DNA of 28,350 nt, from positions 1 through 28,350 of IMG/VR virus record IMGVR_UViG_3300030331_002274. The stretch is one strand, 5' to 3'. The notes beneath the pieces are model-generated. The model did not search any database and was not told where the DNA came from. It saw only the letters and a program-made list of their open reading frames with translations. The position numbers were made by a program, and so were the translations under genes. Positions 15,065 to 22,974 of this stretch are shown piece by piece. Every line of letters starts with the position of its first letter. Within the stretch, counting starts at the first letter, position 1. The stretch is from a virus.

Positions 15065-15759
15065 TGGCTTTCTTGCAAAGCAATATCCCGTACTTTAAGT
15101 GCTGGGTTAGGAAGGAATACACACACAACCACACCAAGTATCACGGTGAGTTCATACATGCGATGGCAATCGCTGTAACGACGATGCCGTGTCGTAGCTT
15201 GAGCTTTCAAGTGATATTCACTGGGGCAGAGACCTACGATGAAGACGATGAACCAAATGTTCATGGCGGCGCAATGTGGGCAAGGATGCCGATTACAGGT
15301 TTGGTAGCAGATACTCCGCTAGAGGAGTGGCCTGAACCAATGCCGACATGGGCAGCGCAGCCTTGGGATTGTAGCTCCAGAGAGCACTCCGTGTATGTGC
15401 TTGATCGGTGTACACCTTGCCCTTGGCTGGCAAAGATTGATGGTGAGATGTATCCGGCGAAGTATCTTTTCACCGTGGATTACACTGACAACGAGATAGC
15501 TGATGACCCTGCACAACACAAGCAGAGCCATGTTATGGAGCTTTTGGATGCAGGGCCGTGGACAGGAAACATCGTTGCTTTGCCCAACAATCGGGTTAGA
15601 GTGACGCATCCGGCATGGTTTGAGACAGGCGAAGGTGCCCCAGATTTCAGACCATCCCAGCACATTCATTACAGTAAGTCCGACCTGGACTACACATTAG
15701 ACGTGAATCAAGTATTCGATAATCTCTACGCAGGAGAAGATGATGAGGAAGAAGACTAA
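15064..15759 (+). CDS. Conserved marine-phage protein, unknown function
   Basis: A 231-residue protein, ATG at 15064 overlapping the upstream TGA. It begins MAFLQSNIPYFKCWVRKEY and contains HGGAMWARMPITGLV, AQPWDCSS, CPWLAKIDGEMYPAKYLFT and a block ending in RPSQHIHYS. I recall nearly colinear proteins from uncultured marine phage genomes, always without function and near terminase or portal genes. Trp- and Pro-rich, globular, no membrane span. The acidic tail (EDDEEED) overlaps the start of the next gene by 20 bp. Possibly a particle component or assembly factor, from position only. Confidence 0.75.
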   Translation: MAFLQSNIPYFKCWVRKEYTHNHTKYHGEFIHAMAIAVTTMPCRSLSFQVIFTGAETYDEDDEPNVHGGAMWARMPITGLVADTPLEEWPEPMPTWAAQPWDCSSREHSVYVLDRCTPCPWLAKIDGEMYPAKYLFTVDYTDNEIADDPAQHKQSHVMELLDAGPWTGNIVALPNNRVRVTHPAWFETGEGAPDFRPSQHIHYSKSDLDYTLDVNQVFDNLYAGEDDEEED

Positions 15760-21461: not shown

Positions 21462-22370
21462 ATGGCAATTTCAAGAGCGCAAATGCTGAAAGAACTCCTT
21501 CCGGGGCTTAATGCCCTTTTCGGGTTGGAGTATGAAAAATACGAAGACGAGCACACTCTCATTTATGAGACAGAAAGCTCTGATCGTTCGTTTGAGGAAG
21601 AGGTAAAGCTGTCAGGCTTTGCGGCGGCTCCTGTTAAGGCAGAAGGTGCGGCAACCAGCTATGACTCAGCGCAAGAGTCTTTTACAGCCAGGTATAATCA
21701 CGAGACAATTTCGATGGGCTTCGCCATTACGGAGGAAGCTATGGAAGATAATCTCTACGATTCACTTTCTGCTCGTTACACCAAGGCGCTTTCTCGCGCT
21801 ATGGCGTACACGAAGCAGGTGAAGGCGGCAAACTTGCTCAACAATGGTTTCGACACCTTCCAGTCTGGAGATGGCGTAACCTTGTTCAATGCTTCACACC
21901 CCCTAGTAAACGGTGGGACTAACTCCAACCGTCCATCTACTGGGGCTGACTTGAACGAGACATCTTTGGAAAATGCGATCATTGAGATCGCTGCTTTCAC
22001 TGATGAGCGAGGTCTTCTGATCGCAGCACGTCCTCGTCGTTTGATCGTACCACCCGCTTTGATGTTTACAGCAGATCGTCTGCTTGAAACCACTCAGCGT
22101 ACAGGTACCGCAGACAACGACATCAACGCAATTCGTAACATGGGTGCGATCCCAGAAGGCTACGCAGTCAATCACTACCTGACTGACAGCAACGCTTTCT
22201 TCTTGATTACCGATGTGCCGAATGGCATGAAGATGTTCGAGCGTACTCCGTTGGAAACGTCTATGGACGGTGACTTCGATACTGGTAACGTGAGATACAA
22301 AGCCAGGGAGAGATACTCTTTTGGAGTGTCCGACCCACTTGGAATCTACGGATCACCAGGCTCTAGCTAG
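21462..22370 (+). CDS. Major capsid protein
   Basis: A 302-residue protein with the sequence style of HK97-fold capsid proteins: N-terminal helix ISRAQMLKELLPGLNALFG, EEEVKLSGFAAAPVKAEGA (E-loop region), GFAITEEAMEDNLYDSL (spine-helix region), a central IVPPALMFTAD and C-terminal RYKARERYSFGVSDPLGIYG. The last motif is one I recall as a hallmark of capsid proteins in this type of phage. Forms the shell after scaffold-guided assembly, probably folded with the phage co-chaperonin. AAGGAG precedes the ATG, and a strong terminator follows, as expected for a highly expressed gene. Confidence 0.9.
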   Translation: MAISRAQMLKELLPGLNALFGLEYEKYEDEHTLIYETESSDRSFEEEVKLSGFAAAPVKAEGAATSYDSAQESFTARYNHETISMGFAITEEAMEDNLYDSLSARYTKALSRAMAYTKQVKAANLLNNGFDTFQSGDGVTLFNASHPLVNGGTNSNRPSTGADLNETSLENAIIEIAAFTDERGLLIAARPRRLIVPPALMFTADRLLETTQRTGTADNDINAIRNMGAIPEGYAVNHYLTDSNAFFLITDVPNGMKMFERTPLETSMDGDFDTGNVRYKARERYSFGVSDPLGIYGSPGSS

Positions 22371-22378
22371 AGCACTTT

Positions 22379-22407
22379 GGGTGGCCCTTCGGGGCCACTC
22401 GTTTTTT
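22379..22407 (+). terminator. Intrinsic terminator after the capsid gene
   Basis: GTGGCCC and GGGCCAC form a perfect 7-bp GC-rich stem with a stable TTCG tetraloop (22388-22391); one G-U and one G-C pair extend it to 22379-22400. TCG and six Ts (22402-22407) follow. It begins 9 bp after the capsid stop codon, so capsid mRNA can be ended here while some transcription reads into the next genes. Confidence 0.92.
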
Positions 22408-22419
22408 ATCCTGACTAAT

Positions 22420-22435
22420 TGTTCCACGTGGAACA
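22420..22435. promoter_or_regulatory. parS-like ParB binding site (16-bp palindrome)
   Basis: TGTTCCACGTGGAACA is a perfect palindrome. It matches the bacterial chromosomal parS consensus TGTTYCACGTGRAACA at every position as I recall it, with the C/G variant known from Pseudomonas-type sites. It lies 12 bp after the capsid terminator and 29 bp before the next gene, outside any coding region, and is the only copy in the window. It may attract host ParB. An alternative is an RNA hairpin (5-bp stem, ACGU loop) at the start of the downstream message. Confidence 0.7.
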
Positions 22436-22464
22436 TTAGACACTAACCCAGACAGGAGACTTAC

Positions 22465-22974
22465 ATGGGTACTACGACTTTTACTGGTGCGGTTCGCTCT
22501 GAAAGCACCTTCAAAACTGTAAGCAAAAACAGCACCTCTGGTGCTATCACTGAGGTTGCAACTATTGGTGACGGCCCTGTAAGCCTAGCTGACTCAGACG
22601 TAACTCTAACTAACGCAACCCACAGTGGAAGAATTTTACTGGTTCCAGACGGTGGTCAAGATAATACTTATACGCTTCCGGCTCCTATTGCTGGATCTGT
22701 TTTTAGGTTTATTTACGCTGGTGGCGCTGCTGATGCTACGGACGCGCTTATTGTTACTCCCAGCAACACTAATTTTTATATTGGTGGCGTTACTTTCCTA
22801 GATACGGATGGAAATGAGGTGAGTTCAGTATTCTCTGATGGCAACTCTAACAGCAGCATACAGTTGAATGTGCCTGCCGGATTTGATGTAACCATCGTTG
22901 GTTTGAACACAACGAACTATCAAATCTTCGGGAATGTTACGAGCACAACTGCACCTGCATTTGCCGATCAATAG
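22465..22974 (+). CDS. Putative virion surface protein
   Basis: A 169-residue, Thr/Ser/Gly-rich beta protein. AGGAG precedes the ATG. The core HSGRILLVPDGGQDNTYTLP and SVFRFIYAGGAAD segments, then SIQLNVPAGFDVTIVGLN, suggest a beta-sandwich or jelly-roll decoration domain. I recall similar small proteins downstream of capsid genes in marine phages. A head decoration or fibre role is inferred from composition and position. It is the first gene after the terminator and the parS-like site. Confidence 0.68.
   Translation: MGTTTFTGAVRSESTFKTVSKNSTSGAITEVATIGDGPVSLADSDVTLTNATHSGRILLVPDGGQDNTYTLPAPIAGSVFRFIYAGGAADATDALIVTPSNTNFYIGGVTFLDTDGNEVSSVFSDGNSNSSIQLNVPAGFDVTIVGLNTTNYQIFGNVTSTTAPAFADQ

Follow-up and report, generated by a model that had tools for sequence, protein, structure and literature searches.

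A parS-type palindrome behind the capsid gene

The window, i.e. the whole stretch of DNA analysed here, is a viral record (G000) taken at its complete length of 28,350 bases. The region of interest begins with a 302-aa Mu gpT-like major capsid protein gene on the plus strand (21462..22370), assigned by both PHROG and Pfam: its product matches PHROG 371 major head protein (E 1.4e-24) and the Pfam families Phage_capsid_4 (52.4 bits) and Mu-like_gpT (38 bits), both over the cut-off. A consensus scan places a terminator-like hairpin 3' of this gene on the same strand (22378..22401), with a stem of 10 pairs, 7 of them G-C, and a TTTTTT tail. Further downstream come a plus-strand match to the Mu-gpT-DE RNA (RF03012; 22409..22467) and a called plus-strand ORF of 169 aa (22465..22974) with no PHROG and no Pfam match; in phage DSL-LC04, the gene downstream of the capsid is annotated as a cement protein. 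A tRNA scan revealed no tRNA.

The 94-base gap that separates the capsid stop codon (22370) from the following ORF (22465) contains the 16-bp palindrome TGTTCCACGTGGAACA (22420..22435, no strand assigned). A pattern scan allowing up to 3 mismatches returned it as the sole match to TGTTYCACGTGRAACA in the window, and it agrees exactly with the 16-bp palindrome TGTTNCACGTGNAACA that defines a chromosomal-type parS. It is also letter for letter the parS2/parS3 sequence of P. aeruginosa, as given in the available part of a study of that species (PMC4368675). It is not near oriC or the parAB of its own replicon and adjoins the capsid gene instead. The number of exact matches to the four-variant consensus expected in the window is 2.6e-5 from base composition and 4.1e-5 from a first-order Markov model. 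A shuffle control at up to 3 mismatches to TGTTYCACGTGRAACA gave a mean of 0.50 and at least one match in 40 of 100 shuffles; since it was run at that tolerance, it says nothing on the exact match. A chance origin of the palindrome was rejected from the expectation of ~4e-5 together with the clustering of such sites near the capsid gene in relatives. These results agree with an earlier note on this DNA, which had described a perfect parS palindrome at this place, estimated its chance occurrence at the order of 1e-5 and located it between genes, just past the capsid terminator.

The palindrome is the tip of a predicted RNA hairpin

With cmscan, positions 22409-22467 match RF03012 with 41.6 bits (E 1.7e-8), which does not reach the gathering score of 49; accordingly, the Rfam search of the window at gathering cut-offs returned no match. 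The alignment spans model positions 1-53, with the outer helix, the hairpin and GACAGGAG all present after a Mu gpT-like capsid gene, and overlaps both the ribosome-binding site of the following gene and its start codon. The palindrome is the tip of the variable hairpin within this match. Among 12 searched relatives, six score at or above the gathering cut-off, for instance L138 (73.1 bits) and L074 (54.5 bits). The predicted fold of 22409..22467 has an energy of -12.7 kcal/mol (z -2.1), and 7 of 200 shuffles fold equally well. Within it, the palindrome forms a stem of five pairs in the minimum-energy structure, or six in the centroid structure, closed by an ACGU loop.

In many other capsid relatives, such as L482, L530, L574 and L323, Mu-gpT-DE is replaced 3' of the capsid gene by another recurring element (CTAGG ... 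GACTGACCTAGCAGAC ...), which by eye resembles a second structured RNA. Seemingly related elements from L150, L135 and L170 gave no Rfam match at gathering.

The site recurs at the capsid 3' end in varying placements

Conservation was examined in two sets of capsid relatives. Among the first 80, selected by capsid similarity alone, 18 carry the motif within 250 bp 3' of the capsid gene; a search at this position in related phages had been called for in the earlier note. Against the strict TGTTYCACGTGRAACA, 3 of the 18 copies are exact, 14 have one mismatch and 1 has two. Against TGTTYCAYRTGRAACA, a consensus composed after the variants had been seen, 17 are exact and 1 has one mismatch. Elsewhere in these loci (612,954 bases in all), TGTTYCAYRTGRAACA occurs once with one mismatch and three times with two. 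The second set comprises 80 relatives of the capsid of L214, a locus itself picked up by the motif. Here, 21 exact and 4 one-mismatch copies of TGTTYCAYRTGRAACA are found near the capsid 3' end; these loci total 282,654 bases and have no copy with 0-1 mismatch at other positions.

Three placements can be distinguished. In the window's clade, the palindrome is embedded within the RNA hairpin. In L131, L185, L045 and L055, it directly follows the T run of the terminator and is not part of the RNA. In the third placement, it comes after the capsid stop codon and before the terminator, and the RNA further downstream retains an ordinary hairpin in several of these loci. When mapped at up to 2 mismatches on the 160 rows of a capsid tree, from which L533 (partial capsid) is omitted, the motif is present in 44: 17 embedded, 2 post-terminator and 25 pre-terminator; 114 rows are without it, which makes the site accessory, and 2 loci are too short for scoring. 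The embedded and pre-terminator forms belong to different clades separated by starred branches, and the presence of the site changed at least 14 times, this being a minimum. In the rows closest to the window's capsid (97-99% identical), the palindrome is centred on CG, CA or TG, and that of L125, one of these rows, is broken. The CG core is missing in 24 of the 25 pre-terminator copies. A search of whole records, mostly chosen for having the motif, found it at one place in 24 of 26 and at none in 2.

Many relatives retain the Mu-gpT-DE hairpin without the palindrome, and some hold unrelated hairpins there. The earlier note had regarded a hairpin kept without the palindrome as evidence against parS, and many relatives do fit that description; since the palindrome also occurs outside this hairpin, such cases fail to refute a parS.

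In a separate locus, L031, an exact parS (2493) directly follows the stop codon of a 307-aa protein and precedes a 168-aa ORF. The protein matches PHROG 11320 and, more weakly, PHROG 1623 virion structural protein, so that this is perhaps a convergent placement behind another capsid-like gene.

DNA and RNA constraints on the palindrome

To separate the two constraints, stretches with TGTTNCANNTGNAACA followed by GACAGGAG were collected: at least 120 stretches reduced to 86 distinct contexts, 78 of them inside the RNA, among the matches listed. Before pairs were counted, 34 duplicate contexts and 8 non-RNA contexts, the latter sorted by eye, had been removed. Among the matches listed, the centres of the 78 embedded contexts are CA (39), TG (24), CG (14) and TA (1), the CG core thus missing in 64 of 78. 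At positions 5/12 of the same 78 contexts, again among the matches listed, C/G occurs 47 times, T/A 13, T/G 18 and C/A 0. On DNA, T/G and C/A are one site seen on opposite strands; in the RNA, the former pairs as U-G and the latter is mismatched. The occurrence of 18 U-G against 0 C-A therefore indicates that RNA pairing is kept at embedded sites, the contexts being related and the split thus not representing 18 independent events. The C/A form is found outside the RNA, in L538 and, in other contexts, in L326 and L337. In L538 (TGTTCCATGTGAAACT), two of the six RNA pairs that could form are lost, and the parS letters are kept save at one end.

RNA alone is insufficient to explain the palindrome, because the 16-mer is found in other capsid relatives outside the RNA, before or just after the terminator. 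A pure RNA hairpin was accordingly rejected as a full account and retained as a second constraint. Judging from these alignments, the window's clade is under both DNA-site and RNA-pairing constraints, and solely the 16-mer is common to all placements. Since a DNA palindrome doubles as an RNA hairpin, it fits the variable hairpin without breaking the RNA.

Sites in named Pseudomonas phages and other viral contigs

BLAST with a motif-bearing query matched 11 records: the Pseudomonas phages phiPMW (two copies), Ep020 and UAVern, 2 Roseobacter records, 2 entries named 'Bacteriophage sp.', 2 Tortoise microvirus and 1 Enterococcus record. The two Roseobacter matches align to the RNA part of the query. 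Searched as whole records, phiPMW, Ep020 (a record marked unverified) and UAVern carry 3, 4 and 4 sites, respectively, of which the query selected one per phage, the remaining sites being unselected; the reversed-pattern control gave 0, and ~4e-4 sites per genome are expected by chance. The three phiPMW sites are at 15422, 20515 and 20735 of KU862660. The same whole-record search found zero sites in six named capsid relatives for which other hosts are stated. In Ep020 and UAVern, exact sites (L625 3002 and L626 3008) come, by eye, after a terminator-like hairpin and T run; they are also two bases 3' of a stop codon, like those of the window's relatives.

In viral contigs at large, two parS forms gave at least 120 matches each, and one permuted palindrome, a single control, gave 2. 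The CATATG form was found in 60 viral contigs, mostly in coding sequence by reading; two of these contigs (L446, L459) are Mu-gpT-DE sites, and this form is not a clean baseline. Among the matches listed, 73 of 127 places with exact 16-mers fall within ORFs by a naive ORF call.

Several contigs carry clustered copies. L105 has five exact TGTTCCACGTGGAACA in 11.5 kb (4324, 6308, 8135, 9161, 10442). Four of them precede an AGGAGG-like stretch and an ATG and have a GGACAACAA stretch in common; this looks like an operator or promoter array. In L049 (~310-350), L071, L099, L108 and L109, exact TGTTCCACGTGGAACA and TGTTTCACGTGAAACA start ~25 bases apart or less, and the L049 pair is, by eye, directly upstream of a terminase-like ORF. 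L642 and L669 show five TGTTTCACGTGAAACA copies within ~1 kb of one viral contig.

The same variants mark recF in a candidate host family

The nearest match of the window's capsid among GTDB genomes (94%, L472) belongs to a Cellvibrionales MAG; 20 loci were found in all. Host assignment through MAG binning of these 20 loci was discarded as too noisy, the bins belonging to many phyla and one being archaeal. Our guess is that the host is a gammaproteobacterium of the Pseudomonas/Porticoccaceae kind.

In G028, a Porticoccaceae MAG by its title, the contig with a ParB Pfam match bears TGTTCCACGTGGAACA and TGTTCCATGTGGAACA in one ORF, ~12 kb from parB. This ORF was read as recF from its neighbours, ORFs read as dnaA, dnaN and gyrB; recF, dnaA, dnaN, gyrB and parA were all assigned by reading translated ORFs, and ParB by the Pfam match. 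Among the 61 genomes of its family, 59 contain TGTTNCANNTGNAACA and 41 contain exactly two copies, spaced 621-881 bases apart among the pairs listed; the reversed-pattern control hit 4 of 61. HTH_ParB is present in 60 of 61. In all 21 fetched genomes with pairs (20 and G028), both sites fall within one ORF in the same codon phase. The second recF site has a CA (7) or TG (4) centre in 11 of 21, encoding FHME or FHVE, and both sites have CG in 10 of 21; only the free letters (5, 8, 9, 12) are informative in these pairs, because the genomes were picked by the pattern. Five further regions were inspected, one from G065 and the others from four genomes with a single site among the matches listed: a one-mismatch partner is present in 4 of 5, L623 is unclear, and L620, among the four, has a TA centre in its listed site. 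Hence, the phage-type variants (C/T at position 5, G/A at position 12; CG, CA, TG and rarely TA as the centre) also occur at the recF pair of this family.

At the level of the order, TGTTCCACATGGAACA was found in 21 of 390 genomes, 10 of them from the clade of G028. Of the sites in ten other genomes that were fetched, recF contains five, one (L614) is beside gyrB and four are elsewhere. The last of the 21 matches, G027:C16, is the phage contig of L472 itself. In a recF codon test, site-1 columns are codon-invariant in 5 of 5 cases, compared with 14 of 128 amino-acid-invariant degenerate columns overall, a test that is partly circular because its genomes were picked by the 16-mer. In L615 (G442:C2:330033), a bacterial genome, a CACATG form is the inner part of a seeming terminator hairpin.

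In P. aeruginosa, parS1 and parS2 are likewise situated in recF, according to the available part of PMC5521831. Available sections of another study (PMC4368675) judge an intact CACGTG core important in this species, parS5 (CACATG and another change) being the weakest site; the CA/TG copies may therefore bind ParB more weakly. P. aeruginosa ParB binds GTTCCAC half-sites, as described in the accessible part of PMC10419367, and each CA/TG copy retains one such half-site.

No par genes were found on the phages

Among phage records other than the whole records of the pre-terminator phages, ParB_N (PF02195) was found in 0 of 27, many of them fragments and the longest 57-65 kb. It was also absent from nine named phages, including phiPMW, Ep020 and UAVern. 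ParA (AAA_31, PF13614) was found in 0 of 31 phage records, many of them fragments, and no integrase was found in 31 records, most of them fragments. A phage-encoded ParABS cassette, i.e. parA and parB together on the phage, was thus not detected in these 27 (PF02195) and 31 (PF13614) records. When the ParB of G028 was compared with the ORFs of the fetched loci by phmmer, one weak match was obtained (L705, E 1.3e-5). The earlier note had offered a phage-coded ParB outside the window as one user of the site; that candidate was dropped on its absence from the 27 records and the nine named phages, with a single weak phmmer match. A plasmid-like or integrating lifestyle was set aside likewise, given no integrase and no ParA in the 31 records, most of them fragments. 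As neither ParB_N nor ParA was found, a site for the host ParB is the simplest account.

Interpretation of the phage site

Collectively, these comparisons suggest that the virus may borrow a chromosome-moving protein of its host. The identity of the site as a putative parS is well supported: it matches chromosomal parS and its variants, and it holds the capsid 3' end while its placement relative to terminator and RNA changes. We consider it probable, from sequence comparison, that the palindrome is a host-type chromosomal parS at which host ParB would load, most likely positioning or co-segregating phage DNA, with RNA pairing as a second constraint. Host ParB would load at the phage site as a CTP clamp and slide into the virion operon, and the phage DNA could then be handled by the host ParABS; the probable use would be positioning or co-segregation of phage genomes during a slow infection. 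The chromosomal type that the earlier note had assigned to the site gains support from the recF pairs, the varied placements and the Pseudomonas phages; the account of that note lacked the overlap with the RF03012 RNA. Counting against a host-type parS are the many copies without the CG core (most of them), the accessory nature of the site, the binning of the capsid relatives across many phyla, the RNA pairing kept at embedded sites, the selection of the recF genomes by the pattern itself, the frequent position of exact 16-mers within ORFs of viral contigs and the fragmentary state of most phage records.

That host ParB binds for another purpose, the phage copies titrating it from the host origin or repressing transcription at the capsid/decoration junction, seems to us rather unlikely. 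Indeed, the available part of PMC5521831 describes P. aeruginosa ParB repressing promoters beside the intergenic parS3/parS4, and the phage sites do adjoin terminators. However, one place per matching record (24/26) makes a weak sponge prior to replication, and sites on either side of the terminator do not fit any single roadblock geometry. It is quite improbable that the palindrome simply caps the Mu-gpT-DE regulatory RNA as its apical stem, the likeness to parS having no DNA function. The RF03012 match of the window, the pairing kept at positions 5/12 (18 U-G and 0 C-A in 78 contexts among the matches listed) and the unrelated hairpins occupying the same place in other relatives are what such an RNA would give, whereas the identical 16-mer also stands upstream of the terminator while the RNA retains an ordinary hairpin, L538 loses two of six RNA pairs with its parS letters kept except at one end, and identical 16-mers are chromosomal sites beside oriC genes.

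Very unlikely, in our opinion, is a reading of TGTTYCAYRTGRAACA by some other DNA-binding protein, such as a phage repressor or host regulator, with a coincidental likeness to parS. The relaxed YR centre, unlike the CACGTG core reported as important in P. aeruginosa in the available part of PMC4368675, could point in this direction, as could the AGGAGG-like stretch and ATG after four of the five L105 sites. On the other hand, the targets of a regulator would be spread over the genome, and 41 of 61 genomes in the family of G028 have exactly two matches, the recF pair where fetched. We know of no regulator that recognises TGTTYCAYRTGRAACA.

Beyond the preferred reading of a host-type parS on the phage, a broader proposal is that unrelated phages, including the named Pseudomonas phages, practise centromere piracy: they would carry copies of the host centromere and, while lacking par genes themselves, rely on the ParABS of the host for positioning and sharing out their genomes, some fitting the centromere into a regulatory RNA hairpin as a dual-use DNA/RNA element. 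We hold this generalization as tentative, a possibility that falls somewhat short of an even chance. If ParB does load, phages would exploit bacterial chromosome segregation while encoding none of it, which would alter views of ParABS and of phage DNA positioning; the named Pseudomonas phages make this testable in laboratory strains. Furthermore, one sequence would be both a protein-binding DNA site and an RNA hairpin, its strand-asymmetric variation marking the RNA role.

Comparison with known systems

In the openly licensed literature, we recognised among the best-ranked matches no report of a phage bearing a host chromosomal parS without par genes, and the term 'parS' is absent from the main text of the phiPMW paper. 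P1-type phage-plasmids and extrachromosomal mycobacterial prophages encode Par proteins for their own sites. Their ParABS systems likewise place a centromere site on a phage genome, whereas here no ParA (31 records), ParB (27) or integrase (31) was found. A nearby yet different case is a genus of Staphylococcus phages that carries a ParB-like gene and in which no ParA was found, as far as the available part of the report goes (PMC10286716), and an artificial parS in lambda serves as an imaging label, according to the accessible part of PMC13190303. Relative to the Pseudomonas chromosomal parS (parS1-parS4, with parS1/2 in recF), the palindrome of the window equals parS2/parS3 in the available portions of PMC4368675, but the phage site is beside a capsid gene, away from oriC/parAB, and the core in most relatives is CA or TG. 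With the Mu-gpT-DE RNA, the window shares model positions 1-53 and the overlap with the ribosome-binding site of the next gene, at a sub-gathering score; it differs in the tip of its hairpin, which is the parS palindrome and exceeds the consensus loop in length.
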